From NCBI RefSeq assembly GCF_047663525.1, contig NC_092612.1, positions 1,397,501 through 1,461,500 of the forward strand: a stretch of 64,000 nt of DNA, given 5' to 3'. Under the pieces are notes generated by a model, which did not search any database, was not told the origin of the DNA, and saw only the letters and a list, made by a program, of their open reading frames with translations. The DNA is from Anas platyrhynchos (Eukaryota > Chordata > Aves > Anseriformes > Anatidae). Of the stretch, positions 22,701 to 62,607 are shown piece after piece. The translations under genes and the position numbers were made by a program. How positions within the stretch are numbered: position 1 is the stretch's first letter; every line of letters starts with the position of its first letter.

Positions 22701-25700
22701 CAAATTCCTGCTGCCTCCCGTTGTCGATCTCCACCAGCCGGGTCTCGTGGCGGCGTTTGGTCTCCCGCAGCTCCTGGGGACGGGGCAGGAGACACGGAGT
22801 CAGCTGGGGGTGGCACCAGCTCGGGGAGAGGGGCTGGAGATGCGGCGTGCGGGGCTTGCCCCGAGCACGCTGCCTGGATCAGCCTTCTGCAGGGAGGCAC
22901 CGGCAGGGAATTCGCCCTGCACACACCCCAGGGCAGCTCTGCCTGCTTCTCACCTCGCTGTAGATGTTCTTCTGGAACTCGAGCTCTTCCTTCAGCGTCT
23001 GCAGCCGGTTCTCGGCATCCACCCGGCGCAGCATCTCGTCCTGCAGCTGCTTCTTAGCCTCGTTGCAGGCGCTTTCCAGCTGTGGAAAGAGAGGGATCGT
23101 CACTGCTTGCTCCCGGGGCCAGCCTGGCTTGGCCTCCAGCTCCTCCACCCCACAGCCCCAGCACACAGGGGACGGCATCAGGGGTCCCCAAGGGGGACAG
23201 GGACGGATCCACCACTGCTCACCTTGGCCACCTGTGCCCTCAGGTCCCTCACTTCAGCCTCCAGGTTCCTCTTCTCGCTCAGGGCGGTGGAGAGCGCAGC
23301 CTCCTTGGAGTTGAGCAGCGCCTCCAGGTCCTTGAGGCGCGCCTGGGCGGACAGCAGGTCCCCTTCCTTCTTGGCATTGCTGCGAGGCACCGAAAAAAGA
23401 GTTTTTGAGGAGGGGGGGGGACCACCCTGCAGCTGCGCCCCTCCGCTCGCCCCCCAGCATCACCGCAGGGTTGAGGCTGGAGCGCGCCCTGCGCGCACCC
23501 GCTAGGGGTCACTGCGAGCCCGGCTCAGCCGCCGGTGCCGTGGAGGGGGGGCACCAGCCGTGTCCCCCCCTTTTTTCCCCTTAACTCCAAGCCCTCTGAC
23601 AGCAAGGTCAAGGCCGGCTCTCGCAGGCAGCAGGCGCAACGCTGCGGAGCCGGGGAACCTGAGCCGAGCCAAGCGCAAGGCAGCCCGGCGCTATTTTGGT
23701 CGGGTCTATAAAAAGAAAAAGTTCAGGGCTTTTGCTGCAGCATGGAGGCACTGGGGGGGTGTTGACACCACCAAGTTTGCACCCCCAGCTCCTGACAGCA
23801 GAGCCCCCGCTGCCCACCAAGTGGGGTGCTCGAGGGATGGAGCCAACCGCGGTGGCCCCACGGTGGGCGAGCAACGGCCACGTGCTGGCGAGCTCCTCCG
23901 GACATTCCTGGGGCAACGAGCGTGCACCCACGCCGTTAGATCATGGGTAAAGTTAGACACGGCGCTGAGCCTGCCCCAGCTGCAGGATCTGGCCCGGGCA
24001 GGACGGGAATCACCAAAAACCAGGCACTGGGGAGCCGTTCGCCTCCCTGCGCAGCGGGGCGAGCAGGGACCGGTGACCCCGACACCTCTCAGCCAAGGTG
24101 GATTTTCCTGCGTGGATTTTTTCTGTTCCACCAGGACATCATTTGGAGACTTTTACACCTCTCAAAGCCCGGCCACACTCGAGCAGCCCCACAAGCCAGC
24201 CCAGCTCCCCATTTTGTGGCTCGGTTTGCCAGGGCCGGCCGCCCAAGCGCTGTGCCGGGGGGGGGTTCTGCCTGCGCACCACCACGCTCCTTCCATGCCA
24301 GTGACTCATAGGAGAAAAATGCCATCTGGGAGCCGAGCCCGAGCCTCCTCGGCTGAGCACAAACACCCCTGGAGGCTGAGCTTTCCCAGCTGGCAGCAGC
24401 TCGCCCTCGCAGCCAGCGTGGCTGGCTCGCTGGCCACCGCTGGCACGGTTTAATCCTGCTTCCCCTGATCGAGTTAATCGCTGCTTAACTCCGCGGAGAG
24501 CTCTGCCTTCGTTTTTTTTTTTGCATCTGGAGCTCTTTGCTCTTCCTTTGAGGGACCGATTCAGGCACTGCTTGGGCTGCTCGGGTGCATGTCCTGCAGC
24601 CTACAGCTCTTCAGGGGACACCACCGGCACCATCAATGATTAAAAGAGGGAGGGGAGGATGCCAAGTGGATGGTCACATTCCTGTCTGCACAATGATTAA
24701 CAGGTTTGCGCTCTCAAGGGACCAGGAGGGCCGCAGGGCTCAGGGGAGGACCTGTTGGTGCCTGGAGAGCCCCGAGGTAAATCCCAGAAGACCCAAGAAC
24801 AAACCACTTGTCCTGAAAACCTCCCCCCATCATCCAGGGTGAGGCTGGAGAGGAGCGGAGAGGGGAGCTCGGAGCCCAGTCTGGCCCACATGAGGCTCTG
24901 GGGGACCTGAGCATCTCCCCAAAACTCCGGCACCTCTGGGTGAGCTCCCCCCTGGACCCAGCTCACCCCTGCTCCAGCCCAGCCAGGATTTGGGGTTTCC
25001 CTTGCCCCCCCATGGTTGCTGCCTCCCGACGGGTCCTATTTCCCCTCCAGCCTCTTGGCTCCAGCTGACGGGGGGCTAAAAATAAGAACGCTTACGGCAG
25101 CTGCGCCGCTCCCGCCTCCCTAAACAGGGAGACAAGAGGGGATGGAGGGGGCTGTCGGTCTCCCTATCCTGCCCGCGGCAGCCTGAAGGATCCCAAATTC
25201 TCCACCGGGCAGAAGGGAAGAGTGGGTGCACCCCGAAGGGCCCCCCCCATGCCCGGAGAGCCAAGCCAGTGAAAAACAAGCAGCATTTATCAAAGCCCAG
25301 GGTGGAAAGATGCAACGGAGGCAGCAAATCCTCGAGAAACAAATGTCTCGGGAGAAAAAGATGGAGGGAGAAGGGGGCCTCAAGACGGTTTTATTTTTAG
25401 CCTTTAAAAGCAGGAAGGAGGAAAAAAAAAAAAAAAAAGAAAAAAAGAAAATTGCAGCCGAGCTGCCAGAAAATGCAAACATTAATGGAAAGTTGGATCT
25501 GCTCTGCCTGTGCTTAACGCAGACACGGGGAAGAGCCCGGCCTCGGAGCGGGCTGTGGCTGAAGGGGCCCCAGGGTGCGTGGTCCCCGTGCCCAGGCACA
25601 GCTCTGCCTCTTTTCCCCCCAAATCCCAGCCCAGCGGCTCCGGGCTCCCCTCTAGAAAGTTTGAGAGATTTTGGAGCCGTTGGGGGCTCACGGGAGGAGG

Positions 25701-28700
25701 CAACCAAACGGCTTTGGGCACGTGCGCCGGGCTGGGTGGCGAGCCAAAAACCCCGCTAAGCCCACGTCGGGAAACACCCTCCGGTTTCCCCCGGCCCAGC
25801 CAAATCACACCGAGACGTTTCAGAAGCTCCCACGGACCCAGCAGCTCCTGCTCGGCTGCTGGAAGGAGCCCAGCACAGTGGGAGAAGCGGGCGTTCCCCC
25901 GCCTCCGAATCGCAGGCGCCCCACCCTGGGGACCTCGCGGGTTTGTGCTGGCTCCTGCCACCCGTTTCTCGATCCCCTGCACATCTGCAAAGCCCCTGGG
26001 GAATTCGGTTTCTCGCCTCGCCACGAGGCTGGGGGGCACGCCGTGCCAGGAAAGGCTTACGTTGTACTGATGGGTTTGGGAAACTGAGGCACGGAGCAGC
26101 GCGGGGTGCCCAGGGAGCTTGGTGAAGGATCTGGTTAATGGGAGGACCCGGAAAAAATGCTCTGCCCCCGTCTTGGGTTTGCTGCTGTGCACGGTGCTGC
26201 CTCTGGCATCGAGGATCTGTTCCTCATCCCAGGGATCCACACCCACCCCAGGGATCTGTCCCCATCCCAAGGATCTGCCCCTGCCCCAAGGATCTGTTCC
26301 CCACCCCAGGGATTTGTCTCTATCCCAGGGATCTGTACCCACCCCACAGATCTTCCCCCATCTCAGGGATCTGTCCCCATCCCAGGGATCTGTTCCCATC
26401 CCAGGGATCTGTCCCCACCCCAAGGATCTGTTCCCCACCCCAGGAATCTGTCCCCACTCCAGGGATCTGCCTCCACACCACGGATCTGCCCCCACCCCAG
26501 GGATCTGTCCCCACCCCAGGGATCCGCACCCATCCCAGGGATCCGTCCCCACCCCAGGGATCTGCCCCCATCCCAGGGAGCTGTCCCCATCCCAGGCATT
26601 TGTCCCCATCCCAGGGACTTGTCCCCATCCCAGGGATCTGTCCCCACCCCAGGGATCTGCCCCCCATCCCGGGGGGCTGGCAGGCACTGCGGGAGGAGAT
26701 GTGGGGCTGGGAGAACCTCGGCAGTGGGGCACTGGGAATGCGGCCGAGCCGCTTCTCCCAGCTCCTGACTCATCGGCGCTCGGCGGGGCCTTGGCCAAAT
26801 CACCAGGATAAACAGGGGCTGGTCTCCTAGCAGGGAGCTGTAAATAGCCAGCGCGACGTATAGGGAGGACCAACATCTGCACACAGCCAGCATCCTGTTA
26901 GGGACCAGACCCCGGTGCCAAACGGCAGCCGGGGGATCCCGGTGCCGGCAGCGTTCGAGGTTGTATGGAAACGGCCCCCGCCCGCCGGCACCCGCGGTGC
27001 CAAAATCCCTTCCCGGGGCCAGGGCTGGTGCCAACCACGCTGCACGGCCCCGGCACGCTCGTCCCCTGTGGCCAAAGGGCTCGGCTGCACGTGGACAGAG
27101 CAAACAGCTCATGAGAGCTGGGGTTCCCCGGCCCCAAATTGGGATTTGGTCCTCTGGGGACCGCAGGAGTGGGCTTCGCAGGGATGCCAAGGCAGCTCGC
27201 CACTGGCACAGGGGGGAAGTCGTGGCCATTTCAGGCTCCCAAAATCTTGGTCATCCCCGTCCCACCTCAAATCCCATCCCCAGGAGCCTTGCTGGGAGCC
27301 CTGGGCACACAAAACCCTGCACAACGGGACCGGAGCCCAGCCAGGATTTGTGGCCATCAGCCACAAACCCCCTGCGCCCACACCCCTCTCCATGCAGCCT
27401 CGCCTCTCACAACAGGGGAAAAAGCAATTTGTGTCCCTTGGCGCTCTGAAACGTCGATACAACTGACCACAGCGGGGGCTGGAGGGTTTCTTCCCCCTCC
27501 CTTGCTATTTAAAAAGGGGGGGAAACAAGCTGGCAAAGCATCAAGCTCACTGAAAAGCCCGGCGCAACCCGTGCCGCTTGGGAGCCCCGGTGTCACTCGT
27601 TCCCTTTCCCGTCTGCCTGCGCCAGTGCCGATGACTCACCCCAGCCCTTGCCGGCGGCACGAAATGGAAATCCCAAGTCACCGAGCGCCGACGTTGCTGT
27701 TTGGGCTGAGCCCCCCCCTAGTAACAGAAGGGCTCGTGGTTTTGGTGGCAGTGCTGGATAGAAAAGGGGGAGGTTTTGCTGGTACCCCTGAATCGGGACG
27801 GGGCCAGGCTCCTCGCTGCCCACCCCGCACGATCGAGGGCCATGGATGAGGTTTGCGGGAGGTGTAAATCCTAAAAACTGCCTGCACAGAGGACGGGCAG
27901 GATTTATCCTCCGTGGCCACTCAGCCCTGGGAAAACAGCTTCCAAACGGGTCTGCTGCTGGCTCGCCGCCTGCGAAGCTCCTTCCACTGCTGCTTTAACT
28001 ACTGCAGGGTGCAGCGAGCTGCAGAAAGAGGATACAAGGGGATGAAAAGAGCTGGGAAAGAGCAAACGAGCATCAGCTGCTGGAAGGCGGCGGAGCTGGG
28101 GGGCACACACGGCCCCCCCAGAGCCACCGGTGCTGCCAGTGGCCGCGCCTCGTGCCATCCGGAGACGTGCACGCAAAGCGAGGACAGGATTTCCCTCTCC
28201 ATTCCTGGCTTTGCCACCAAGCCCTGGGTTATCTGCAGCAAAAAAACTTGTGGTTCCCATCGTAAAAAATGGGAAAACCTTCAAAACCCTGAATATCTCC
28301 ACTCCTCTGCAAATTGCAGCCAAACGCTGATCCCTTCCCAACTCGCCAGCCATGGCACGCACATGGCGCTGCCCCAACCACCACCGAAAGGATGGAGACG
28401 AAGCGAATGTTCCCAGATTTTCCTCTGGGGGCTTGATGATGAGGGTAGGGCTTATAATTGAAGTTAAAAAAAAAGGGAGCTGAGTCACTCCCGTTGAACA
28501 CATCTGTGGGGTTGGGAGCGCTGGGGGGTGGCAGCTGGCAGTGTGGGGCAGGAGAGGAGCGGGAATGCAAATCCTGGCCCCATGAACCGGGAACTGCGGC
28601 CACCATCAGGCAAATTGGGTGGCTGAGCCCCACGGAGCATCAAAAGGAGCAGGACCCCGGAGAGGGCAAGCAGGGAGCGAGCTCGAGCTCTCCTCCCCAG

Positions 28701-31700
28701 CAGCTCGCCCCATTTTCCATAAATCTGGGTACGCAAAACTGGCGGAGAGCAAAATTTGCTTGAGAAACAATGCAGGGGATTGTTGGGTTCAGCTGCCACC
28801 CATCGACCTGGGAACAAAAGGCTTTGCTGTGCGGGCTCCCCGGGCACAGATAAAGGCAGGCGAGGTGTTTACTCTGCCCCAAGGCCAACCACGGGTTTAC
28901 TCGGAGGCAGCGAGGTCTGGAACTGCCTCGTTTGCCCACTCTGGCAACCGAATCCCTGCCCCTGGCCACGCTGCCACTGCTGGGGAGGGTCCGAAACTGG
29001 TGGCACTGGGAAAATGCACCCGGGTGGCAGAGCGCAGGAGATGCTCCCAGCACCTCTGCGGCTGTGCCAGGCTGAAACCTGGCTGTGGCCAGCTCAAGAG
29101 CTGCAAATCGCAGAGCCAGACCCCAAGCCCAGCAGCTTTTTGCAGGGGGGGGCAGAGGAACCGAGGCTGGCTGGCACGAAGCGATGCCGCCCGCTTGCCG
29201 GGTTTGGGTCTCTGCCCCGCAGCCGGGGGTGCAGGGCACAAGCCAGCCTGCAAAAGCAAGGAGCCAGCTCCCCAGCAGCAAAACCACCGCGAAAAGTCTT
29301 GGGTTTGCAAAAAAAAAAAAAAAAAAAGACACCAAAAAAAAAAGATTTCTCCTAGGGCTACAGGGAGAGAGCTGGGGGAGCGAGCCTGGTGTGACGCCCT
29401 GCGGGGCCACGTCCCTGCACCCCACAGACCCCGCTGGCAGCGGGGGGACCCCCCCGGCACGTGAGCTGCCGTGGCACCAGGAAGGAAGGGGCAGGCGAGC
29501 GTGGTTGATGGAGTGGCCGGGGCCTCCCGAAAAGGCAGAGGAGCCCGGCCCAGCTGCACCCAGCCTCAGCCCCGGGGCTCAGCGTGACTCACGGCCCCGC
29601 TCCGCGCCTCCTCCTGCCTCCCAACCCTACAGAGGCCGGGGTTTAAACACCCCCAGAGAGAGCCTGGGCTGTTATCTGGGTGGCTCAGAGCTGGGGCTTT
29701 TTAAGAGCGTGGCCAAAGTGCTGTTAAATAACCCCCCCGAAGCGGGGCTGATGTGCTCAGCCCCCATCCAAACCTCGGCGGGGAGCCCCGGGGTGGGCAC
29801 AGGACGAGGACGTGGAGGTTGGAAGCAGGAGCAAACGGATGGGGTGACCCCACTGTGGGATGCACCCCCCTGGAGACCTGCTGGGGAGCTGCTCGTGGCC
29901 TTGATAAAAGAATTTGAAAGCTCCAGGAAAGCCCTCAACCCAACCCTGGCATATCTTGGCACGGATCTGGCCCCGACACCTGCAGTGCCGCACCCCTGTG
30001 AAGGGAGGTTTCGGACACGTACCCAAACCGTTGGGGTACTTTGTCCTGCCGACAGTGAACTTTGCAGCCCCGAACGGTGCCAAGAACGTGGCAGAAGGAC
30101 TGGATAAGCTGAAAGGCCCCGCTCGCAGCACCCACTTGTCCTTGTCGAAAGGAACCGGGACGGCAGCAAACCAAGGCGCAGTCGGGCGCTGACTCAGCAA
30201 CACCCACAACGGGGGAACCCTGACCCCAGCTGGGTTTTGTGGTGTCTGTGGGGTGGGTTCAGTGTACCTCAAACAATTTTCCACCCCAAGCAGCCTCTCC
30301 CAAGTCCCCGTAGCCCTTGGGGACAGCGCAGGGGCTGCAGCTGCCACCGTGGCACAGGGGGGGGAGCGCAGGGCACCCCCAGCAGTTGTTCAGCCTCACA
30401 CTGGGGCCATTCAGCTCTCGGTTGGAGGGGAGAGGAGCAGGGCAGGTGGGAAGCCAACCCACAACACGCTGGCCTTCGGAAATGTGCCGAATTGATGGGC
30501 TTAAGGAAAGCACAGAGGGCAGGGGAGGGGGCTGCAGCCAGGGCTGGGGGCGATTCCCAGCTCCCACCCCCCCCCCAAGCTCCCTGGAGACCCTTCCCAT
30601 GCCAGCCCTGGCTTTGGATGGGACCCAAGGGAGAGCTCCGGTGGCTTCCTCCTGTCCCGGTTGGCAGCAGCAGGGAAGGAAACTGCAGCTCCCAAGGGGC
30701 TCAAATTTAAGCAAAAAAAAAATATACATAAATAAAAAAATAAAAGTAAAAATAAAGGAGCTGGCAGGAGCCCAGCGGCCCCACCCCAACTCCTCTCGCG
30801 TGCCTCCGCCGAGCGCAGCTCCAGGAAAAGGCTCGCGCTGCCGCCAGGCTCTGAAATTTCGGCGTTAATGGGATCCAGAGAGCTGGAGTGACGTGAGCGA
30901 GGCCGAAAAACACGGCCAGGGCGGGCTGGGACCCGCTGCGCGGGGTGGGCGCTTCCCCGTGCCAAAACCAGCCCCGTTCCTCTGCGATCGCCCCCTCTTC
31001 AGCCCCCCGGTTTTGGGGCTGAGAAACGCCGCAAGCGACAGGATTTCCTCCCGTCCTGCTGATCCCTGTTAGGAGGAACAGGCAGGGAGTGGGGCTGCAA
31101 AAACGAAAGCGCCGCGGCGATTTCCTCCGCCTGCTGACCGCGCAGGGGGCCGGGAGCGAAGGGGGGGACGGGTGCTTGTGGGGGTGAAAAAATAACCCCC
31201 CGGCACCGCTGGGAACACGAGGAGCGTGGCTAAAAGCAAGCAGCAGCCTCGGAGCAGAGCGGGTTTTGATACAGAGCCCCTTGGCCAGGCTGAGGAAAGG
31301 TGTAGGGGGGGGGAAAAAACCAGCGCTGGGGAGCTGGAGCCGAGGGGTCGGTGGCAAAGTGTGGGCAGAGGCACCCGGGAGGGGCTGGGGGGGCTTGGGG
31401 CAGCCCCAAAGCGGTGGCGCCGCCGGCTCCCTGCAAGGATCGGGGCCGCACAAAGCGGGTTTTGTGTGCTCCAAAAGGGCAGATCCCACTGCTGGCATCT
31501 GTGGGGTCAGGGGAAGCAGCCCCCGAGCTGGAGGTTTCTCCCCACGCCAAACGTGCCGGGAGAAAGGAGGCGGCTGCGCGGCACGGGCAGCACCAGCTCA
31601 CGGGGACGTGGCTGCTTTCCACCTCCACCGGCCTCCGGGGTCACCGGGAAGAACTGGCCGTGGACAAAATCCAGCCCAGCATCGAACGGGGCAAATTCCA

Positions 31701-34700
31701 CCCCTGCCACCCGCAGGGCTGGAACTGGGGGGGGGGCTGCAGGGCTGACCCCAACCCCTTCCATCTCTGCCACCGGGGTTTGGTTGCTCTGCCCTTAGCA
31801 AGCTTCCCCCCTCACCAGCTTTGGAAGATGGGAGATTGTTATTAATTATTATTATTATTATTATTTTTCTCCTCATTAAGGCCCGGGATGAGATCTGGGC
31901 CCGTGGAGGAAGAGACGCTGCCAAGGCACCGACTTAATCGGGTTAGGGGCTGCAATTCAGGAAGCCATCGCTCATCAGCCGCGCTCCTAACGAGGGCCTG
32001 GTTCCTGTTTCGGAGGGAGCTGTCTGCGGCACAGCCACCATCGCCCGTGGGGCTCTGGAAACCTGGGGGCTCCTCTCCCGGGGCACCCAAGGGCCGTATC
32101 CGTACCCCCCCTGCACTCCCTGATGGGGGCTTACAAACGGTTTGCACCCCATAAACCAGGGGCTGATGCGCAGGCCCTGCTCCAGAGGGACCCCGTGCCC
32201 CACGAGACCCCCAACAGCACAGGTTGGGGACACCGGTGACACCCTAAACATGGTGCTTTTGGCCCAATCCTGGCTCGCCACATGGCTCTGGAAAAAAAAA
32301 AAAAAAAAAAAGGGAGTCTCCGGGCATTGCCAGCACCCGTGAGTCACGCACGGGCTGTCCTCGCCGCACCCCACGCCTTACACGCAGCACAAGCGGCCCC
32401 ATATCGGGCTGGGAGCCGAGAGGGAAGCCCAGATGCTGGGGACACCGGTGCCACCGGACCCCACGGGGCAACCACTGGGACCCCAAATCACGCGCAGCAC
32501 CCTTGGGTGCCTCTCCGCAGCGCGAGCATCCCTTTGTGTGTGCGCACCCAAGGGCGAGGGGGCTGCTCGCACGCCCTCGCCTCGTGTCCCCCCCCCATCA
32601 CGGAGCCCCCGCTGACTCAGACCCGCCGGGCACCCTGCCCAGGGCTCGTCTCGCTGCCCCCCCCCGGCCCTGCACAGCCCAGACAACCCCAAGCGAGGGC
32701 TGTGGTGGGGCTGTGGGCGCTGATAATGAGGACCGGGGCGCCTGCCCCGCCGGAGATACGCGGCACGGTCCCCGTTAGGATGTGCCGGGTGCCACCGGCG
32801 CCCCAAGGCTGACAAAAAAAAAACCCGGGGGATTTTTTTTAGGGTTATGGGGAGAGGCTCTGATGCAGCCAGCATGAGAGGGACAGCACCGGCTTCGCTG
32901 CACGGAGCTGTCCCCATCTCATCCGCCGAGACTCGGAGATGACACGGAACAGCGCAACTCCCCCAAAACCGCAACTGCAACCTGTCCTCCGAAAAAAAAA
33001 CCCAGAGCTGCTCACCAGGAACCCACCCCCCCAGCCTCAGGGGAGTGCTTTCCAGGTGCCTGGGGAGCACGGCCCCACTCAGGACAAAACCAAACATATT
33101 TTCGCCGAGCGGCCAGGCAGGCTGAGCACGCCACTCCCAGCCAGGCGGCGTGGGGACGGCCGCACGCCGGGCATTTTTTCCAGGCACAGCCCTCGAGAGA
33201 TCGCAGCCAAGATAATTCGGGGCTTGCATAAGGCAGCAGAAGCTTTTCCGACAGCTCAGCTCCGCATCTCGGCGGCTCCCAGCCCACGGCTCTGCCCGCC
33301 CCGCACGATCCCAAATCCCAGGGACCCCGCAGGCAGGGAGCAGCCCGACGCAGGATGGGTGCAGCCGCCTTATCTTGGGGACGGAGCCGCCGCGGCGCAT
33401 GGGAAACCGAAAGCTAAATATAAAAAATGCTGCACGGTTGTTCGAGAGGCAGCTGTGGAAGGCTGCGCAGTCACTCCCTTCCCAGTAGGTAGATTATTTA
33501 TGGCATATTCCGAAGAAGTTAATTTTAGCCTCGTTAGCCTATCGGGCTCAAAAATGAGGTGGCCGGTAAAAGGGGCAAAGGAGCAATCGGGGGAATTGGG
33601 ATTTCACCTGGCCATCGCCCAACCCAAAACCCTGCCTTGGAGAGGGAAAGGACCCGCGGGGAACCACGGCCACGGTGCCTCCGGGTTTGGGTGCGGGGGC
33701 TTGGCGGAGACAGGGGAAAGCCAGGGGCTGGTCCCCATATCTGAGGGGGGGGGACCTACGCTGGGTGCCTGCCACAGCCCCAGGGAGGGGGCAGCAGAAG
33801 GCAGGGGGCATTTTCCACGGCAGGGAAGTGGCCGGGGGGGATTTGAGCCTTGAAGCAGACCTGGAGCGTGGCACCAGGCACGCGGGATGTGGGCGCTGTC
33901 CCCGTCCCCGTCCCCCCCCCACCAAGCAGGGGACCCCGCCGAGCGGGCACAGCTCGGCACGGGGAGGGTTAAAGGCAAAACAAAACCGGAGCAGGTCCTT
34001 CAAGCCGTGCCAAAGACAGCAGAGGAAAATAGGACGAGCAGGCGAGGTCTGTGGGCAGGACGGAGCCAGCTGGCTGGCACCGCTTCCCCGCTTGCGCAGG
34101 ATCGCGCTTCGGAACAGCTCCAAGATGACGAACGCCCAGGGGGGGCCGCGAGCTCAGCACCCGACCAGCCTCGAAGCAGCCCCAGGACCCCACCACCCTC
34201 CAAGGGCATCCCGAGCACCCCGGGGCGAAGATGGCGCTGCGAAACGGAGCGGGAATGCCGGGAGAAATTCCCCTCCTCTCCCGGCCCCCTCGCTCCAGCC
34301 GGGTCACGCGTTTCCCCTCTCCGTGCCCGTCCTGGATCTCCCCCTGCCTCTCCCTCCCCGCTCCCCCCCATTCGGTTCAACCCCCCCGGGTGCTCACCGG
34401 GCTTTCAGCTCCTTGTGCTCCTCCTGGACTTTGCTGAGCTCCAGCTGCAGCCTCGCTCTCTCCTTGGCCACCGAATCCAAGGTCTTGCGGGCGTCCGCCA
34501 GCTCCGACTCGTAGGCGGCTTTGATGCCCGACACCTCGCGGCTCACCACCTCCTCCGACTCGGTGATGCGGAGCCTCAAGCCGGCGTTCTCCAGCTCCAG
34601 CGAGCGCACCTTGTCGATGTAGACGGCCAGGCGGTCGTTGAGCTCCTGCAGGTCCTCCTTCTCCTGCAGGCGGGTGATGCGGGTGGGGGACAAGGGGGTC

Positions 34701-34747
34701 CCCGAAGCCCCGCTGCGGGTGCTCCTCTTCTGCGAAGGCGTCGCCAT
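19678..34747 (-). CDS. LMNA: LMNA, prelamin A
   Basis: Twelve exons join in phase into 1962 nt, or 653 aa (human prelamin A 664). A-type lamins form the nuclear lamina, tether chromatin and carry mechanical load. The head carries the mitotic CDK site LSPTR (Ser20). The coiled-coil rod runs from about 30 to 384 and ends in the intermediate-filament motif [13 protein letters not shown] second CDK site, LSPSP, lies near 387-391, with the nuclear localisation signal KKRKLE at 408-413. The Ig-fold is at about 415-540. The tail has RSY/ILG at 631-636, the expected ZMPSTE24 cleavage site. The C-terminal CaaX box is CSIM at 650-653 (farnesylation). Exons 2-6, 8, 9 and 10 have exactly the human lengths, while exon 7 is 21 nt shorter. 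The start is MATPSQ, with Ala where mammals have Glu. Confidence 0.98.
19865..20122 (-). CDS. LMNA: LMNA exon 11 (lamin A-specific tail)
   Basis: The exon is 258 nt (86 codons; human 270 nt). It encodes [20 protein letters not shown], a serine-rich linker, and [16 protein letters not shown] with the ZMPSTE24 site. The donor is CAG|GTCAGT. Confidence 0.96.
20711..20800 (-). CDS. LMNA: LMNA exon 10
   Basis: The exon is 90 nt (30 codons). It encodes [11 protein letters not shown], an acidic run [10 protein letters not shown], and a histidine cluster HRHHH. In mammals, reading through this donor yields lamin C. Confidence 0.96.
20820..21180 (-). mobile_element. CR1 LINE 3' fragment in LMNA intron 9
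   Basis: From about 20830 the sequence reads as the reverse complement of a CR1 3' end. Visible CR1 hallmarks include CTGGTCCAACATCC, ACGGTGACCCCACCACCTCC, GCACAACTTGAGGCCATTCC and TATCTGCGAGAAGAGG. CR1 is the dominant avian LINE. The fragment is in the same orientation as LMNA transcription, and no intact coding sequence remains. Confidence 0.9.
21215..21252 (-). mobile_element. Short second CR1-like remnant
   Basis: GGGTTGGAAGGGACCCCAAA followed by ACGATCT is the conserved antisense CR1 3'-end core, directly upstream of LMNA exon 9's donor side. It could be a separate insertion or a rearranged end of the neighbouring fragment. Confidence 0.55.
21285..21404 (-). CDS. LMNA: LMNA exon 9
   Basis: The exon is 120 nt (40 codons). 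It encodes [20 protein letters not shown] and [16 protein letters not shown] of the Ig-fold. Confidence 0.97.
21499..21606 (-). CDS. LMNA: LMNA exon 8
   Basis: The exon is 108 nt (36 codons), phase 0/0. It encodes [20 protein letters not shown] and [12 protein letters not shown] of the Ig-fold. Confidence 0.97.
21716..21917 (-). CDS. LMNA: LMNA exon 7
   Basis: The exon is 202 nt, which is 21 nt shorter than human exon 7; the missing codons lie in the serine-rich linker before KKRKLE. It encodes the nuclear localisation signal and the start of the Ig-fold ([19 protein letters not shown]). Confidence 0.96.
22012..22232 (-). CDS. LMNA: LMNA exon 6
   Basis: The exon is 221 nt, phase 0 to 2. It encodes [20 protein letters not shown] and the conserved rod end [11 protein letters not shown]. 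The donor is GAGAG|GTGGGT. Confidence 0.97.
22344..22469 (-). CDS. LMNA: LMNA exon 5
   Basis: The exon is 126 nt (42 codons), phase 0/0. It encodes the coil 2 segment with [16 protein letters not shown] and RIRIDSLSS. Confidence 0.97.
22603..22773 (-). CDS. LMNA: LMNA exon 4
   Basis: The exon is 171 nt (57 codons), phase 0/0. It encodes [20 protein letters not shown] to ELEKTYSAK. Confidence 0.97.
22954..23079 (-). CDS. LMNA: LMNA exon 3
   Basis: The exon is 126 nt (42 codons), phase 0/0. It encodes [20 protein letters not shown] of coil 1B. Confidence 0.97.
23223..23379 (-). CDS. LMNA: LMNA exon 2
   Basis: The exon is 157 nt, identical to the human length. It encodes [20 protein letters not shown] and the rest of that coil 1B segment. 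The donor is AAG|GTGAGC. Confidence 0.97.
23380..34397 (-). other. LMNA: LMNA intron 1 (11 kb)
   Basis: This large first intron is conserved in position with mammals. It contains a 19-20-bp minisatellite at about 26.2-26.7 kb, A-runs near 25420, 29310 and 32290, and an ATT repeat near 31840. It also has eight perfect AP-1-type TGA(C/G)TCA sites and an AT-rich MEF2/TEAD-like island near 33.4-33.55 kb. No additional coding gene is supported. Confidence 0.85.
26200..26680. repeat. 19-20-bp minisatellite in LMNA intron 1
   Basis: More than 20 degenerate copies of a unit like CCCCATCCCAGGGATCTGT occur. Point variants such as CCACCCC, AAGGATC and GGATTTGT are scattered through the array. It creates long repetitive open frames on both strands, which are not genes. 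Confidence 0.95.
34398..34747 (-). CDS. LMNA: LMNA exon 1 (coding part)
   Basis: The exon has 350 coding nt ending GCC CG|GTGAGC in phase 2, as in human exon 1 but two codons shorter. It encodes the head, coil 1A and linker: [20 protein letters not shown] to EHKELKA. The ATG is in GGCACCATGG context. Confidence 0.97.
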
Positions 34748-34759
34748 GGTGCCCGGCGT

Positions 34760-34900
34760 CGAGGCGAAGGACACGGCACAGGACACGGCACGGGACACGG
34801 CACGGGGCCCAACGCCACCCAGCCGGCTGTCTCGGCTGCCCCCGGTCCTCCGAGTGACTTATATCCCAGCTGGGCTGTGCACTGCGAGGAGGAGGAGGAG
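34760..34900 (-). promoter_or_regulatory. LMNA: LMNA proximal promoter and 5'UTR
   Basis: The minus strand carries a TATA-like ATATAAG (34864-34858) about 110 nt upstream of the ATG. It is preceded by an E-box CAGCTG and a pyrimidine-rich tract (plus-strand GGA repeats at 34887-34916). The 5'UTR includes three near-identical 10-12-bp copies of GTGTCC(C/T)GTGCC. The start site is inferred to be near 34830. Confidence 0.55.
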
Positions 34901-37900
34901 GAGGAAGAGGAGGAGGGTGGAGTTTTTCGGGGACGGGGTGGAGACAGCCGGCTTGCGTCAGGCCACGGCTTGGCTTGGGAATGGCTGGAAAAGCATCCCT
35001 AGGAAAAGCAGCCCCGGGAGAGCAGCCCTGGGGTGGGCAACCCGCAGCAACCCCGTGGCGAGCCCCACACGTCCCCAGCTCACGGCAGCAGCTCCCCAAA
35101 ACCCGGCTGGGCAGTGCCAGGCTCTTGTTGCACCCCCACTGCTGATGGGGGTCCTGGGGTGCTGCAGGGTCTCGGGGTACCCCTGCTGTGGGACCCCTCA
35201 GGCTGCAGCAGACCCTCCAGCACCCCAAAACTGGGCTCTGGAGACCCAAAATCATGGGGGTCCTAGGGCACTGCTGGGGAACTCAAACGCAAGGCAGCAG
35301 GTCCCGCAGAACCCCGCTGCCCGGGGGAACCCCCGAGCCCCTCGGCATCGGGGGGACCCCCCTGGAGAAGGGGGTGCAGTGCTTGGTGCTCCCCCAGTTT
35401 CCCCAGCACCATTTTGCCCAGTTCCCCCAGCACTAGCTGCACCCCTTTCCTAGCCCCCCTCCCTTAGCCGCAGCCCCCCCTCAGCTTTATCCTTTCCCCC
35501 GATTTCCCTGCGCTAGGATTTTAACTTCCCCCAAATTTTGCGCACCAGCTGCGCCCAGCTCCAACCCCATTCTCCCATCACCACCATTCTCCCAGTACCC
35601 CCAGTTCCCGGATGCCCCAGTTGCCACCCCCAGTGGAGCCCAGGCTGTGTCCCCCCCCCCCTCGTTGGGGCCGCTCCTTCTGCAGACTTTGTCCCTCCTG
35701 CAGGGGACGGGTGCCCTTTGCGCGGCAGCGGGATCGGGCTGGGGGGCAACGTCTGCGCCCCCCCAAAAGGATCTGCGGCCGGCCCAGCCCATCCTGCCCG
35801 GCTCGCCATCCAGCCCCGGTCCCTTTCCAAAATCGCCGACGAGCGGCGAAGCCGCGGGCAGGCCGGGAATGACTCACGCAGCAACGGGAGCAACAGAGGC
35901 AAACAGGCGCACGCAGCCGCACGCCTGCGCGTGCTCGTTATGAATGATTAATCCGGCGCTGATGAGTCACCGACGGGGAAGGGAAGGGAAGGGGGGGGGG
36001 GAGAGAGAACGGGATATTGGGCGGGGGGGGTTGGGGGGGGGGGGAGGACACACACAAGCACAACGAAAATCCAGGGTCAAAATTTCAAAAATCAACAGCC
36101 ACGCACCAGGATGCTGCTTTGGCACTTGGAGAGGGTTGGGGGGGCAAGGGGGGGTGCTGGGCGCAGCGCTGCTCGGGGTGGGAGCCCCGCAGCCCCTTCC
36201 CCGTCCCTGGGAGGGTGTCGGGGCAGCCAAAGCCCCCGGGGGCTCTCCGTGCACCCAGCGGCACCCTTGGGTGCATGGTGCAGCGGGGAACGGGGGGGTC
36301 CCCACACAGCCGCCCCCTTCTCCATGCACACGGGGGGCAGCGAGGGCCACGGGGGACCCAGCCCAGTGCCCCCCAGGACCCGGCACCGCTCTCGGGGGAT
36401 GTGGGCACAGATATGGGGGGCCAGGAGGGGGCCGGGGGGCCCCCGGGACGCCCACGGCCTCGCTGCCGAAGGCGGGGTCTGGGTGCGGCGGCGGCCAAGC
36501 CGCGGGGCAGTGTGGGATGGAAGCCGCCACCGTCCGCTCCCCACCTCGGTGCCGGCTTCAAAAAAGCCACCCCGGGGGCAGGAGGGGAGAGTTTTCCCCC
36601 CCCTTCAGGATGCCTCCGTATTGGGGAGGGGGCTCCAAGGTCCGGAGCATCCCCTGGGATCGGGGCTGCTCGGCCTCACGTGGGAAAGCGCAGCCGCTGG
36701 GACGGCACCGAGGGGCCGGCTTGGGCAAGAGCGAAAATCACAGCCAAGGGTCACCGGCGCCGCCGTCCCCTTGCTCCTGGTGTCCCACGGGGATCCCCGG
36801 CTGCCCCTTTTTGGGGTTGGGGCAGCAGGGGGGGCACGGGGGCTGCTCGGGACGCAGCCCTCCTCGGGGGGCTCCGGCTGCCTCGCACGCTTGCTCCACG
36901 TTTGCTCCCCTTTGGGGCCAGGACGGGGCACCCCCAAAAATCCACTCAGGGCGCAGATATCCCCAAGCACGGAGCCACACAGCCTCGACACCACCAAAAC
37001 ATCCCCTAACAAGGGGGGGACAGGCAGGGCTGCAGCCCCCCCCCGGTGACTCGGAAGGCAGGAGGCACTCACAGCCCTGCAATCGCAGCCCCGTTGCCGC
37101 CCCCAAAAGCTCTTTGGCCTGCAAAAAGCGTCGCTGCTCCAAGGGCTGCACGGGGCACCCTGCGTGCCACGGGGCCAGCCCTCTCAGCTGCCTTTTCCCA
37201 AAGTTTTCCCTGCTGCTCTCCAGTTTTGGTGCTGTTTGAGGGTTCTGGGACCCATTTCCCTCACCCTGCAGGTTTTTTGCCACCCTACAAGCCAGGACGG
37301 AGCCAAACACCCCCCCAGCTCCCCACACTCCTGACTCCAGCTCTTCCCTTTCCCAGCAGGCACACAACATCTCCAAGTGGGGATTTTCCCTTTCCAAGCC
37401 ACCAGGACATTGTCACCCGCATCCCAACCACCCCGTCACCAGCTCCCAGCCCCCAGATTTGTTCCCGGCACGGGGCTGGGAGTGTTTAGGGTCCCCCCCC
37501 CTACATCCAGAGGCTAACGAGCGATGCGGTGCTGGGGACAGGAGGGGACCCGGCTGTCCCTGCCCCATGTCCCACCCCGTCCCCTCGCTCCCTGCTCGGC
37601 GCTGACCTGGCTGATTGTTGGGCTCCCCCCCAACAATCCACCCCCATAAGGGGCTTTTGCGTGTGTGTACAGAGGAGTTTTAATTAGCTAATAATCTTTA
37701 ATAGGGTTTAATTGCCTTGTTATAAAAGGTAATTACAGCAATACATCAATTAGAGCTGTAAAATTAATAGATTTACCAGCTCTGTTTGTTGAGAGAGCCG
37801 AAACTTGCGGCGAGCGGTGGCCGGGGCAGCGCTGGCGGCTGCACTCTGCAGTGACAGCCAAGAGGATGCCCGTGGCTCCTGCGAGCCCTGTGCTTTGCTC

Positions 37901-46900: not shown

Positions 46901-48436
46901 AATTCCCAGCTCCGTGAGTCATGTGGATATGTGCGAGTCGGAATTTTTCATTTTTTAAAGCAAGTTTCTAGACCCTGTGGCTGTGCAGAGAAGCGAGGTG
47001 ATGTAATTCAAGTGAAATCTGGAAGCCCTGGGAGAAGGTGAGCGAAAAGCGGCCCATATTCTCCATTTTTACGCAGTCACACAACTTTTGAGCTAGTTTT
47101 ATTATTTCTGGGCCTGTCGGCGAGCTCGGAGCTGGAGCTCTGCAGTTCTACCTTTGTGTTTGTTTTTCTTTTTTTTTTCTCTTTTCACTTTCTGACTTCA
47201 CTTTCTGACCTCAAAGCTACAGGACAGAACCTAAAATGGAGGTTGGAAGCACACCGGTGTCCCTCAAACGATGCGGCGCCCCCAGGCCAGGCACCGCCAC
47301 CGCCTTCATGAACGGGACCAAACTTTGACGAAAATCCAGACAAAATGTAAATTACAGGACAAAATACACATTCCCAACCAGGCAATGCAACGTACGGGTG
47401 TTTGTGCATGTGGACGCACGCGTGAACCCACACCTGTGTGCGCACAAAGCACTTTGTATCAAATCCCATTCCCACTTTATGGACTTTTTTGGGGTAAATG
47501 CTCACCCCTCGCACACTCGCTTCCCATATCTGCACCTTGCACGCACGTGTGCTTAGGCAGTCTCACGCCCAACCTCACCGTGGGTTGTTAGGTGTGTGAG
47601 TGAGCCATACCTGGGGGCGGGTACGGGGACACCCACGGCCACCAAACGCCCACCTCGACCCTCTCCAGGCCACGCGACGTGCACGGGGCTGAGCCAAACG
47701 CTGCCGTGCGTGCGCAGGATGAGCCCCCCGTCCAGCACCCATGTGGGACATTGCCCACCAGCAAACGCTGCCTCTCGGACGAAGGAACCCCTCCCCGAGC
47801 TGCCAGACCTCAACAAATCCCAGCACCGTGCAAAGGTTAAAATAAAACACGAGCGACTCAGGACGCTGCTCCACACTCGTGACTGAAAGGAGACGCGCGA
47901 AATGCAGCAGCACGAGGTGGGGTTTTTCTCTTCTTAGCTCTACTTTTTTGCTCTTTTTTTTTTTCTTTTTTTCAGAAGCTCGCAGCACGGATGCCAACAC
48001 CTCCAGCCCCAAAGCTGCTTTGTCGCATGTCCTGCAACGAAGGGAACCTGCCCCAGCCCCTCCTGCGCTGTCCCAGCATCTGCCCGACTTCGCGCTGCGG
48101 TTTTTGGGGTTGAAAAGGGAACAAAAGCAAATCACCCATTCCCAAAGTGCCTGGGCAAAGTTGCCGGGAGAGCTCTAGCAACACCTTACCGTCTGAGTCA
48201 CTGGATGAGACATTTCCTTGTGCTGTGTGCCCCATCTGCTTAGTTCATCTGCAAGCTGAGCTCTTCTGCTGGAGACCCAGAAAGAGAGACGGGGAGGGGG
48301 GGGGGGGGAAGAGAGAAACCTCGCGGCGAGGATCGGAGAGCCGGGGAGAGGAAAGCAATGCAGAGTGGGATACGGGGAGAGGGAAGGGGGAAGAAAATTC
48401 CTGCCTCGGTGACAAGGCACCAGTGCCACCATCCAT

Positions 48437-48484
48437 ATCCATCCATCCATCCATCCATCCATCCATCCATCCATCCATCCATCC
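48437..48484. repeat. (ATCC)n tetranucleotide microsatellite
   Basis: About 12 uninterrupted ATCC units. Confidence 0.97.
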
Positions 48485-48834
48485 GTCGCGCCGCAGCCGT
48501 CGTCGCCTCTCGCCAGGGCTGCGGAGCGCGGTGTTGGCGGGGCTTGGGGTGGGGGGGGGGTTGAGCATTGTCTCTCCCCAGCGTAAGCTCGTGGCAATCC
48601 CATTTCATGGGAGAGAGACATCTGGTTTGATTCAAGAAGAAAAGGGGAAGAGGGGAGAAAGGCGCACACACAACACACACAGAGACGCAGGGCCCAGCCC
48701 CAGCCTGGCTGGCGGGGAGCTGAAAAGCTATTTTCAATGCTTCCCGGCGCTGAACCGCTCCTCATTTCAATGAGAAAAGGGAGAGGAGGAAGAAGGGCTG
48801 GCCCCTGGCTCGCCCCCAGCAGCCCCACTTGCCG

Positions 48835-49020
48835 GGGGGGGGCTTTGCTGGGGCTGGGGAGGGGGATTTGCTGGGGGTTGGGGGGCTTTGTTGGGGTCTA
48901 GGCAGGTTTTTGGGGGCTGGGGGGCTTTGTTGGGGTCTAGGGGGCTTTGCTGGGGTCTATGGGGAGGGGGGTTGCTGGGGTCGGAGGGGGCTTTATTGGG
49001 GTCTGGGGGTTGGAGGCTAA
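48835..49020. repeat. G-rich ~20-bp minisatellite upstream of MEX3A
   Basis: Repeats of a unit like GGGGCTTTGTTGGGGTCTA run on the plus strand. Multiple runs of four to seven G make it strongly G-quadruplex capable. It lies about 1.1 kb upstream of the MEX3A start codon. Confidence 0.9.
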
Positions 49021-49499
49021 GAGTGGAGGCTCCGGAGGCTGAGCCCCAGCGCTCCCCGATGTGCTCGTGCGGCACCAAAGCCTCGGGGGTCCGGAACCCC
49101 GCGCCCCCCCACCCCCCACCCCCGCCCCCTTTTTCCGTGCCCCGTCCCCCCCCAAAAAAAAAAAAAAAAAATTAAAAAATCCCTCCAGGCTCCCAGCCCC
49201 ACGCCGTGCCCCCCAGCACCCCCGTGGGTTCCGCTGGGTCGCCAAATCCCCCCCAAAAATTCCCCCCCATAAGGATGCGGCTCCCCACGCCCCCCCCATG
49301 AATTCCCACGCCCCCCCCTTTCCCCTCGGGACCCCCCCCCCGCCCCTTCCACGCGTGCCCGGGGGACTCCCCACGCCGTGTGCGCGTCCCCCGGGGGGGG
49401 CCAGCGAGAAACACCCCCCTCCTTTAACCCCCCCACCTTATCCCTTTCCCACCCCTGCTATCCCCACGCACCCCCCCCGTGCTTTTTCCCACCCGCTCC

Positions 49500-50054
49500 C
49501 CATCCACGGAGCTCCTTTGGGGGGGGGCGTGCGAGCAGGGCTCGGGGACTACATCCCCCAGCAGGCCGTGGGCCGGGGCAGGCTCCCGCTGCGCCCAGCC
49601 GCCTTCAAACAAAAGAGTTTTTCCCCCCCCCATCCCTCCATCCCCCCCCCAACTCCCCCCCTCCGGCGGGGCTCGGCGCCCCCCGGCCCCTCCGAGCACC
49701 GGCGGCGGCTGCGAGCCGGGGGCGGAGGCGGCGGCGGGGGGACCCCGGCGGGCTTGGAAGTGCCTGGGCTCGGGTTACAGAGAGAAAAGGGGCTTGGCCA
49801 GGCGGAGGGGAGGTGGGCGGAGGGTCCTTTTCTCTCTCTCTGCCTTTTTTTTTTTTTTTTTCCTTTTTTTTTTTTTTTTTTTTTTTTCCCCTCCCGAGCT
49901 CTTTGTGTGTCCCCCCCCCCCCCACTCCCCTCCTCTCTCTCTCTCTCTCTCCCTCTCCCTCCTCTCCCTCTCTCTCTCTCTCTCTCTCACACCCCCCCCC
50001 ACCCTCCCCAACCAACCACCACCACCCAACCCCCCTCTCAAGTCTTTGTTAGCC
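49500..50054 (+). promoter_or_regulatory. MEX3A: MEX3A CpG-rich promoter region and 5'UTR
   Basis: The block around 49640-49800 is CpG-dense. It is followed by long T-runs (49845-49887) and CT repeats (49930-49990) leading to the start codon. No TATA box is evident. The exact start site cannot be placed. Confidence 0.5.
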
Positions 50055-50278
50055 ATGCCTAGCCTGGTAGTACCAGGGATAATGGAAAGGAACGGGGGTT
50101 TCGGCGATTTAGGCTGTTTCGGTGGGAGCGGCAAAGACAGAGCGCTGCTGGAGGATGACCGGGCGCTGCAGCTCGCTTTGGACCAGCTCTGCCTGCTGGG
50201 GCTAGGCGAGCCTTCCTCCTCCTCCTCCTCGGCCGCCGTGGTGCTGGTGGAGGACAGCAACAACAACAACAATAACCC

Positions 50279-50311
<33 letters not shown>

Positions 50312-50538
50312 CCCGCCGCCGCCACCGCCGCCGCCGCCGCAGCAGCCGCCGCCGCCGCCTCCTCCTCCGCCGCCCCCGGCCCCGAAGGGTCCCCCGGTTC
50401 CCAGCGCCGGGGCGGCGGAGCCCAAGTTGTGCGCCCTCTACAAGGAGGCCGAGCTGAGGCTCAAAAGCAGCTCCAACACCACCGAGTGCGTGCCGGTGCC
50501 CAGCTCCGAACACGTGGCTGAGATCGTGGGGAGGCAAG
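50055..50538 (+). CDS. MEX3A: MEX3A exon 1 (coding part)
   Basis: The exon has 484 coding nt ending CAA G|GTGAGA inside the KH1 GXXG loop. It contains ten pure CAG codons at 50280-50309 flanked by CCG-rich proline codons. Confidence 0.97.
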
Positions 50539-53500
50539 GTGAGAGGAGCCGGGGGGGGGGGGGGAGCCGGGACAGGACCCCCCCCCGGATGGCCACGATC
50601 CCCCCTTGGTGGCCAGGACGACCCCCACTGATAGCCAGGATCCCCCCCTTGATAGCCAGGATCCCCCCTTTATGGCTAGGACCCCCCCTTTATAACCAGG
50701 ACCCCCACCCCTTTATAGCTAGGATCCCCCCCTTTATGGCTAGGATCCCCCCTTTATAGCTAGGATCCCCCCCTTTATGGCTAGGATCCCCCCTTTATAA
50801 CCAGGACCCCCACCCCTTTATGACCAGGACCCCCCTTTTAGCCAAGGCCCACCCCCCTTTACAGCCGGGACTCCCCGACTTTTCGGCCAGGACCCCCCCA
50901 CTTTTTGGCCAAGCCCCCCTTTTCTAGCCAGGACCCCCCTTTATCACCAGCACCCCACTTTATGGCCAGGACCCCCCTTTAGGACCAGCACCCCCGTTTC
51001 TGGCCAGGACCCCCCCTTTTCGGCCAGCACCCCCCTTTTCGGCCAGCACCCCCCTTTTTATCCAGGACTCCCCTTTTGTCGGGAGGCACCGTGCAGCACC
51101 CCCCCCACCCCCTTTTCCCCCTTTTTAGCACCGGGACCGCCCCGCTTAAAAAGGGGGGGGGGGACCGCGAACTTCCCCCCCACCCCCCCACAAAGCTTTT
51201 CCCCCTGCCATTGTCCGAGCCGAGCCGGGCCAGCCCCGAAGGGGGGGGGGGACAAAGGGGAAGGGGCGACCCGGGAGCACCCGGGCACGGCGGGGAGCCG
51301 GGGCTGAGCCCCCCCCCCAAGTCGGTGGAGGGGTGATGGGGATGCCCACGCGTGTCCGTGTCCCTGCGCCCCTGAACCCCAAAAAGGAAAAAGCGGGGCT
51401 AAAAGCAGCCGGGGGGGAGGCAGGGGGTCGTGGCTGGAGCGGGGAGAAAAAAATCCCCTTTGTTGGGCTCGGCGTGGAAGCGAGGGGGTGTGGTTGGGGA
51501 GGGTTTTGCCGGGCCGGGCGGCAGCCCCCGGGCCTAACGAGGCCCCCAGGAGAGGATTAAGGAAAGTTGAAGTCGTCCTGGCACCGGGGGGGGACAAGCG
51601 GGGACCCCGCCATGGGACGCGACCCCCCGTCCCGAGTGGGGTGTCCCCGTCCCCCCCTTGGCATCAGCCGCCGAGCGCCCGGCCCCGCTCGGTGACAGTG
51701 ATGCTTTTGTTCTCCTCGCGGCTCTGTTCGGAGCGAGGTGGAATGGAGGAGGGCTTTAAAAATTATATATATATTTATTTTTATATATATATATATATAC
51801 ACACACACCACACCACACCCACTCTTAAGTCACCCCTCGCCCACCGCTCCGGCTCCGCGAGTGGGGGGCGCAGGGGGCTCGGCGTGGGGCTGGCGAGAGA
51901 AGTTTGTGTTGCTTGCAGAAAGGGGGGGGGGGAAAGAAATAATAATAGTGTGGCTAAGTGGGATTTTTTTTTTTCTCTCTCTCTCTCTAAGCAAGTAACT
52001 TGACGCTCTGGAAGTGTGACGGGCAGAGACTGCGGCTCCACATCCAGATGCTTCCTCTTGGGTTGGGGATTGAAATTGCTTGAGCTGGGAGGTTTTTTTT
52101 TTTTTTGTTTGGTTTTTGGAGCCCTGCTGCTGCTGGGGTGGCAGAGGGGAGCTTGTGGGGGGGTGGGGGGACACCCGTATGGGTGAGGCCGCTGCCACCA
52201 GCCGGGGACCCGAGGGGCGCGAACGGGCTGATGGCCGCGCGTCGCTGGGCTGGAACGCGAGCCGGGAACAATGGGGCCTCCGGTGGCTCGGCTCGCCCGG
52301 GGACGAAGCCGGGGACGGAGGGGGCGTGGGGGCCACCGTGCGCTCCCCGAGCCCCCTGAGTTGGTGGCGAGGTGTCCTGCTTTGGTTTCCGTCCCCCCCC
52401 ACCTCGTGCCAAGGGCTGGGGTAGGGGCGAGGGCACGGCCGCCCACCCGGGCAGGGGGTTTGGCAGCAGCCCCGCGCGGCGGGGGCACGGCCGTGGAGAA
52501 TCAGGCCCCCTTTGTTCCCTAAAGTTGGGAGACAGACGGGCGGCGTGGGGGGGGGGGAGACGCTGGGCGATGCAGGAGGTGCCCCTGCTGTACCCCCCCC
52601 TCGGCCTCGCTGCTGCCCTGACTTCAGGTGCGAGGGTATTTTTTTGGGGGGGGGGTTTGCTTGGCGGGCAGCGGTGTGCGCGGACATGGAAAACCTGGGT
52701 TTCTTCCACCATTTTTCGTGTGCGTGAGGCTTTTCCCACATCTGGGAAGCGTTAGCGGCCGGAGCCCTGGCTGGGTCAGGCTGCGCCCCCCCAACAGGGC
52801 TCAACGGGGCCGGATCCCGTGCGTGCTGGGACCCAAGGGTGCTTCGGCACAGCCCGGGCATCCACAGCTCTGCGCCCCAGCAGCCATCCTGAACCCCGCC
52901 GGTTATTTTCGGAGGCCTTCAGCCGTGTCTCCCGGGTCTGGTTTTGTCGGGAGGCTGGGCTGTGCCGGCCGCCTCGCCGACGTAGCTGGGTGCGGACGCT
53001 GCAGGGACCTGGCGCCATCCCTGGGGGCCAAATCCTGGCCCACGCTGGGGGGCTCAGCACCCCCCCTGGGGGATGCTGCAGATGGGGAGGGGGGAGCTGG
53101 CTCTCGAGGGAAGTGAGTGGTGTGAGGGTACTGGTGAATGGGGCGAGGAACGTCTCGGAAAAGAGGAGGGTAACAAAAAAAAAGTGTTATTAAAATAAAA
53201 ATCGTATCGGGGCTTTGATGGGTAACAGGGTTGAGCGTTTTCTTTAACTTGGTCTTTTTTGATCCGACGAGCCGCGCCATTCGTGTTATCGCAAAATGTT
53301 TTCCACCTCTGGAAGTGTAACTTGCTGGCATGAGCGCACGCGAGCGGCCTGGACCTGGGCACGGGGGGGCCCTTGGTGTGCCTCTGGCCTTGAGATTTCC
53401 ACCTGCTCCAAAACCGCCCTGTGCGTTGCTGGAGCTGTGTGCAGGCACCTGGGTGTAAATGGGGCTCAGCCCCGGGTGTTTTACTTGGGATGGACGCAGG

Positions 53501-62500: not shown

Positions 62501-62607
62501 ACAACCTCTTCTGCATGGAGTGTGCCGTGAGGATCTGCGAGAGGACTGATCCGGAGTGCCCGGTTTGCCACGCTGCAGCCACTCAGGCCATTAGAATATT
62601 TTCCTAA
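50055..62607 (+). CDS. MEX3A: MEX3A, KH/RING RNA-binding protein
   Basis: Two exons (50055-50538 and 61502-62607) join in phase to 1590 nt, or 529 aa (human 520). MEX-3 proteins bind RNA through tandem KH domains, act in post-transcriptional control and carry a C-terminal RING E3 ligase. KH1 spans about 145-215 with GXXG loop GRQG (159-162). KH2 spans about 232-302 with GPKG (250-253). The C3HC4 RING has Cys478, Cys481, Cys493, His495, Cys499, Cys502, Cys514 and Cys517. The N-terminus [20 protein letters not shown] is family-specific, so the start is secure although an open frame continues upstream. The linker holds Ser6, Asn6, Gln10 and long proline runs. The C-terminus is ATQAIRIFS. The gene is divergent from LMNA, as in human. 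Confidence 0.98.
50280..50309 (+). repeat. MEX3A: (CAG)10 polyglutamine tract in MEX3A
   Basis: Ten uninterrupted CAG codons encode Gln76-Gln85, followed by about ten prolines, two Gln and about eleven more prolines. Confidence 0.97.
50590..51075. repeat. ~20-bp minisatellite at start of MEX3A intron
   Basis: More than 20 degenerate copies of a unit like CCCTTTATGGCTAGGATCCC occur, drifting to CCCTTTTCGGCCAGCACC toward the 3' end. It begins about 50 bp after the exon 1 donor, behind a G-run of about 14. Confidence 0.95.
51762..51820. repeat. (TA)n/(CA)n microsatellite
   Basis: TA dinucleotides run into ACAC repeats. Confidence 0.95.
55738..56225. repeat. Degenerate ~90-140-bp tandem repeat in MEX3A intron
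   Basis: Four or five diverged units start near 55741, 55853, 55941, 56036 and 56178. Shared landmarks are (T/A)AACACAACTTTCATC, (C/A)AGATATT(C/G)(A/G)GG and TGGTCCTTT. AT content is higher than in the flanks. Confidence 0.65.
57636..57899. mobile_element. Possible ancient MITE with GGGCC termini
   Basis: The left end, GGGCCATATTCTGATCTTGG, and right end, GGAGATCTGGGCC, form degenerate inverted termini. The interior contains GATGTAAATCAG and GGTGGAGTTATCTGGATTT, like the amniote non-autonomous DNA elements with GTGTAAATC/GGAGTTA motifs. The assignment is from memory of the motif family only. Confidence 0.4.
59255..59370 (-). mobile_element. MIR-like SINE remnant
   Basis: CCATTTTACAAACCGGGGAC, CGAGGCTC, GAAGTAACT and GTCAGGATTTGCCTG, in order and spacing, match the reverse complement of a MIR 3' half (the ACAGATGAGGAAACTGAGGC ... 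AGGATTC type). It is heavily diverged. Confidence 0.6.
61502..62607 (+). CDS. MEX3A: MEX3A exon 2
   Basis: The acceptor CCCCAAG precedes GC TGC AAG. The exon is 1106 nt including TAA and encodes the rest of KH1 ([20 protein letters not shown]), KH2 and the RING domain. Confidence 0.98.

Follow-up and report, generated by a model that had tools for sequence, protein, structure and literature searches.

The closest described counterparts of the locus reported here, the LMNA gene in a 64-kb window of Anas platyrhynchos DNA (64,000 nucleotides; assembly GCF_047663525.1, contig NC_092612.1, positions 1,397,501 to 1,461,500), are the promoter and first intron of the mammalian lamin A/C gene. The mammalian first intron reportedly carries regulatory motifs and DNase-hypersensitive sites, in work attributed to Arora in 2004 and to Nakamachi and Nakajima in 2000; the former reportedly concerned other factors, HNF3-beta and RXR-beta. 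For the promoter, a passage of one paper describes a human LMNA fragment picked to hold an activator protein 1 (AP-1) site recognised from the rat promoter (Tiwari 1998; PMC9468711). An alternative first exon, that of lamin C2, lies within LMNA intron 1 in mammals according to a passage of PMC3183053. The protein also meets AP-1: excerpts of two papers report that lamin A/C binds c-Fos at the nuclear periphery (PMC7588210, PMC7504305), and one of them places Ser22-phosphorylated lamin C at c-Jun-bound sites (PMC7588210). A literature search gave no title on AP-1 at LMNA intron 1 among the matches listed, an absence that is weak given the thin coverage of subscription papers. In the window analysed here, perfect AP-1 sites in LMNA intron 1 were found at about ten times chance level and, with a pair upstream, they may form a dispersed AP-1 input to the gene.

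AP-1 heptamers at LMNA and their excess over chance

A compact LMNA gene occupies the minus strand of the window. The limits of intron 1 were taken as the GT donor past exon 1 and the AG acceptor ahead of exon 2. Exon 2 starts at 23379 and further lamin peptides follow within ~3.7 kb, to a CSIM C-terminus near 19692, so that intron 1 (G+C 62.6%) makes up the bulk of the gene. The coding part of exon 1, with its ATG at 34747, had lamin A/C as top PDB match (6jlb, E 3.2e-57). The heptamer TGASTCA (S, C or G) occurred 12 times in the whole window, with 8 copies inside LMNA intron 1. A preliminary description had listed eight intronic heptamers and four outside, and all 12 of its coordinates were exact and the list complete. 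The gene parts and the ten sites nearest to them are given below, the heptamers, which come from a word scan of the window, without strand.

23380..34397, minus strand: LMNA intron 1, 11,018 bp (GTGAGC donor, TCGCAG acceptor, lamin frame on both sides)
34398..34747, minus strand: LMNA exon 1, coding part from ATG to donor (Pfam Filament, E 5.8e-27; GT donor next)
24302..24308: AP-1 heptamer TGACTCA
26766..26772: AP-1 heptamer TGACTCA
27632..27638: AP-1 heptamer TGACTCA (ATGACTCAC; also flank comparison)
28481..28487: AP-1 heptamer TGAGTCA, GC at one side (also flank comparison)
29585..29591: AP-1 heptamer TGACTCA
30190..30196: AP-1 heptamer TGACTCA, contains TGACTCAGCA; 12 of 13 positions of a TPA-type Maf recognition element (T-MARE) with its flanks (also T-MARE scoring)
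32340..32346: AP-1 heptamer TGAGTCA
32613..32619: AP-1 heptamer TGACTCA, GC at one side (also flank comparison)
35870..35876: AP-1 heptamer TGACTCA, ~1.1 kb 5' of the LMNA ATG
35963..35969: AP-1 heptamer TGAGTCA, ~1.2 kb 5' of the LMNA ATG

The earlier count of four sites outside the intron held, but the last two of the list lie 5' of LMNA at only 1.1-1.2 kb from its start codon, which places 10 of the 12 sites in the LMNA 5' region. These two are 93 bp apart, the tightest pair in the window, in CpG-rich surroundings (observed/expected 0.96 and 0.92), and two near-misses, TGACTTA at 34855 and TGCGTCA at 34954, stand between them and the ATG. No TGASTCA was present in 1-24301 or 48201-64000. 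The sites at 46915 and 48194 are the only ones remote from LMNA and lie between it and a KH-domain stretch at 61.4 kb.

Expectations for the intron were computed over 23401-34396. Markov models of its own composition predicted 0.79, 0.71, 0.19, 0.20 and 1.41 sites at orders 0-4 against the 8 observed, with P 9e-7 at order 1 and still P 1.1e-4 at order 4, which is the least favourable null since the sites feed their own 5-mers. When the model was trained on the 52,982 bp outside the intron, 0.85, 0.36, 0.26 and 0.47 sites were expected at orders 1-4 (P 3e-6 to 5e-10), and with either the sites excised or the outside-trained model the expectation stayed at 0.07-0.85 over orders 1-3. The chance figure of 1.3 per 11 kb given in the preliminary description was somewhat high next to orders 0-3 (0.19-0.79). 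Its author had named composition-matched shuffling beforehand as one refuting test, and the density stayed far above that null: 400 dinucleotide shuffles, each confined to blocks of 400 bp, averaged 0.78 sites and never held more than 4, with 8 reached in none. Over the whole window 12 sites were observed against 4.66, a count reached in 0 of 100 shuffles; conditional on 12 sites, the chance of finding 8 inside some 8,317-bp stretch of the window was P 0.0011. Measured against these nulls, the statistical excess of TGASTCA is firm.

Each of the 8,192 heptamer families, a family being a word and its reverse complement, was then ranked in intron 1. TGASTCA stood 64th, 15th, 2nd and 1st at orders 0, 1, 2 and 3; at order 2 (expected 0.19, P 3e-11) only poly-A was ahead, and the ten families next below were, by our own comparison, words of a tandem array at 26213-26664 or AT repeats. 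The order-1 P multiplied by 8,192 is ~0.007, a value not to be relied on given that 15 families reach that P. The intron held 0-3 copies of each of 21 further control words, likewise odd palindromes. These ranks bear on the alternative of coincidence, in which heptamers happened to pile up in a GC-rich intron and drew notice through the fame of the motif. Such a coincidence would fit one window with a motif chosen post hoc, a conditional clustering P of just 0.0011, and the 63 families at order 0 and 14 at order 1 that deviate more; it is opposed by first and second place at the higher orders, by local shuffles that never exceeded 4, by the nature of the 14 families that outrank TGASTCA at order 1 (in our reading mostly A-runs, AT repeats and words of the 19-bp array, with CAGCTCC a clear exception) and by the extreme ratio of perfect to neighbouring words described below. 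Coincidence is considered unlikely.

Exactness, flanks and accompanying motifs

Perfect and single-mismatch sites (38 mismatch words) stood at 8:2 in the intron and 4:59 elsewhere in the window (Fisher 1.5e-6). For the intron with the upstream block (23380-36000) there were 10 perfect sites versus 2 elsewhere, and 4 single-mismatch sites versus 57 elsewhere (P 9e-8). Of 616 families present in 5 or more intronic copies, TGASTCA had the highest perfect-to-neighbour ratio, 76, and the next, poly-A, had 14; this comparison does without a Markov model and carries the most weight. Near-misses were also fewer than simulated: the intron held 2, whereas 100 simulations at each of orders 1, 2 and 3 averaged 16.8, 9.4 and 10.6 and never fell below 8, 4 and 4, respectively. 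Composition bias was tried as an explanation of the excess and is disfavoured by Markov orders 0-4, by the local shuffles and by the neighbour ratio, with the caveat that the rank is only 15th and 64th at orders 1 and 0.

The consensus for AP-1 flanks is VTGASTCAB, with a base other than T before the heptamer and other than A after it. All 12 perfect sites had such flanks, against 42 of the 61 single-mismatch sites; for the 8 of 8 intronic sites two nulls gave P 0.006 and 0.037, which is modest evidence from a test picked post hoc. In vertebrates AP-1 sites are often spread by repeats, and the sites here might have been carried in by copies of a mobile element or of a dispersed repeat that holds the heptamer. 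At E 1e-3 (low-complexity filter on) the 300-bp flanks of the sites resembled neither each other nor any other part of the window, none of the 12 sites overlapped a listed tandem array, and near-misses, expected of decayed copies, were depleted. Composition or decayed repeats fit poorly because perfect sites abound, near-misses are scarce and the flanks lack a common repeat; a repeat origin finds no support within the window and is very improbable. The 19-bp tandem array at 26213-26664 in intron 1 has ~24 copies (GGATCTGTCCCCACCCCAG) and ends ~100 bp from the site at 26766.

The intronic sites are separated by 2464, 866, 849, 1104, 605, 2150 and 273 bp. These distances speak for several small AP-1 elements more than for a single enhancer, and of the "distributed enhancer" proposed earlier the word distributed is upheld, no intronic pair being closer than 273 bp, and the single enhancer is not.

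The earlier label of an AP-1/Maf cluster divides in a similar way. Its AP-1 half finds statistical support in the excess over all nulls tried, the few near-misses, the fitting flanks and the lack of a shared repeat, and its Maf half is supported at one of the 8 intronic sites. That site, at 30190, had been described as a near-full T-MARE at 30188-30199, and its sequence CGCTGACTCAGCA indeed matched 12 of 13 positions of the T-MARE consensus; it contains TGACTCAGCA, which we take to be an NF-E2/NRF2-like element. The other seven matched at 7, 7, 7, 9, 9, 10 and 10 of 13, where the core alone gives 7, and a 13-bp T-MARE or TGASTCAGCA was present at only 1 of the 8. A general Maf cluster was rejected on these scores. 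A related alternative holds that the intron is a response region for CNC-Maf dimers (NRF2, BACH, small Maf) instead of AP-1, tying LMNA to oxidative stress. It draws on the 30190 site, on the GC at one side of the heptamer at 28481 and 32613, and on TGASTCAGC, which in either orientation occurred 4 times in the intron (at 30190, 28481 and 32613) versus 0.16 expected; the P of 2.4e-5 is not conditioned on the AP-1 excess, and this surplus arises largely because the AP-1 core is itself in excess. The low T-MARE scores of seven of the eight sites and the Maf half-site TGCTGA, which was not enriched (4 versus 6.2 expected), speak against it, and we regard it as quite improbable.

A total of 30 motif patterns were tried in the intron, with expectations from a dinucleotide model. 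The MEF2-like pattern YTAWWWWTAR occurred 4 times (25076, 25391, 33414 and 33519) versus 0.07 in local shuffles, where 4 was reached in 0 of 400; three such sites lie elsewhere in the window, and three scrambled AT control words had 0 intronic copies each. These sites are a possible muscle input to LMNA. Also in excess were GATA-type AGATAA (5 versus 0.77 expected) and GTTAAT (5 versus 0.70), and more weakly CAGCTG, CACGTG and a forkhead word; SRF, NF-kB and STAT words were not significantly enriched in the intron. HDAC4 sites are enriched for AP-1 and MEF2 motifs together according to a passage of PMC11317144, the connection to LMNA being our own.

A proposed dispersed AP-1 input and its alternatives

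With the sites, their excess, their exactness and their placement at LMNA directly established, intron 1 is probably a spread-out control region, given the roughly tenfold abundance of perfect AP-1 sites and the near-absence of imperfect ones. On balance, we favour a dispersed AP-1 input to LMNA from intron 1 and the ~1.2 kb upstream, a function read from sequence. Under this proposal, the ten scattered sites would be preserved individually by selection, and dimers of the JUN and FOS families would occupy several of them under growth-factor, stress or mechanical signalling. Bound sites would open separate small regulatory elements, which may jointly raise or tune transcription, presumably of LMNA rather than of a neighbour; the site at 30190 could also accept CNC-Maf dimers (NRF2 or BACH with a small Maf).

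Several results weigh against a dispersed AP-1 input. The rank of TGASTCA varies with the model, and the order-1 null is overly permissive for natural DNA, as shown by 15 families at or below P 9e-7. By raw count TGASTCA was fifth among 128 odd palindromes, the four ahead being GC-rich, and of the 1,760 families that have three G/C positions and lack CpG, 8 reached at least 8 copies; the background was drawn from one 64-kb window. The shortage of near-misses is not predicted by simple site turnover; a TGAWTCA control, with 0 intronic copies versus 0.57 expected, has little power. No tight homotypic cluster, with several sites per few hundred bases, was found in the intron (gaps 273-2,464 bp), and the 1.1 kb directly upstream of the LMNA ATG holds no perfect heptamer. 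TEAD, RUNX, ETS and C/EBP are frequent AP-1 partners, and their words were at chance in the intron, a mild point since such words would be supportive and not strictly defining. AP-1 is not the sole over-represented motif, as the MEF2-like, GATA and GTTAAT words are also in excess. A search for orthologues gave 22 pattern matches in viral contigs and 157 in genome contigs (prokaryote collection), of which 0 were confirmed as relatives in either.

The elements might also act on a neighbouring gene or an unannotated intronic transcript and not on LMNA. Intronic elements can bypass their host gene, and the sites at 46915 and 48194 lie towards the KH-domain stretch near 61.4 kb on the plus strand, which we take to be MEX3A. 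This target is improbable in view of the 10 of 12 sites in LMNA intron 1 and the near-upstream block and of an Rfam scan that found no family at gathering score in the window. The minus-strand reading frame at coordinates below LMNA appears semaphorin-like, as judged from the frame list with no search made, and the gene order of the window, read in this way, agrees with that around LMNA in other vertebrates.

The level of lamin A sets nuclear stiffness. If the dispersed AP-1 input is real, it would be written in the sequence and would connect growth, stress and mechanical signals directly with the dose of lamin A; stiff surroundings keep lamin A/C high, according to a passage of a review (PMC13024949). 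One further step would make LMNA intron 1 a dispersed AP-1 sensor in a negative feedback, in which signalling raises AP-1, AP-1 raises lamin A/C by way of many distinct intronic elements, c-Fos is held at the envelope by the added lamin and the nucleus becomes stiffer, and selection keeps perfect sites and purges near-misses. Such a loop is conceivable, and in this full form rather unlikely; it could be tested by editing defined sites, because lamin A/C binds c-Fos and phosphorylated lamin C is at c-Jun sites in the excerpts cited above (PMC7588210).

Comparison with described systems

The locus shares with the mammalian lamin A/C promoter, as far as the cited passage describes it, an AP-1 site at the same gene. 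The position differs: the sites here occupy intron 1 or lie 1.1-1.2 kb 5' of the ATG, with none perfect in the ATG-proximal 1.1 kb. The mammalian first-intron studies reportedly likewise treat intron 1 as an LMNA regulatory region, and the factors reported by Arora differ. Homotypic clusters of transcription factor sites in vertebrate enhancers resemble this locus in that one motif recurs several times close to a single gene; they are packed in a few hundred bases, whereas the sites here are spread across 8-12 kb. In the control of AP-1 by lamin A/C the two players are the same, but the direction described there runs from lamin to AP-1, and the sites reported here would add the direction from AP-1 to LMNA.

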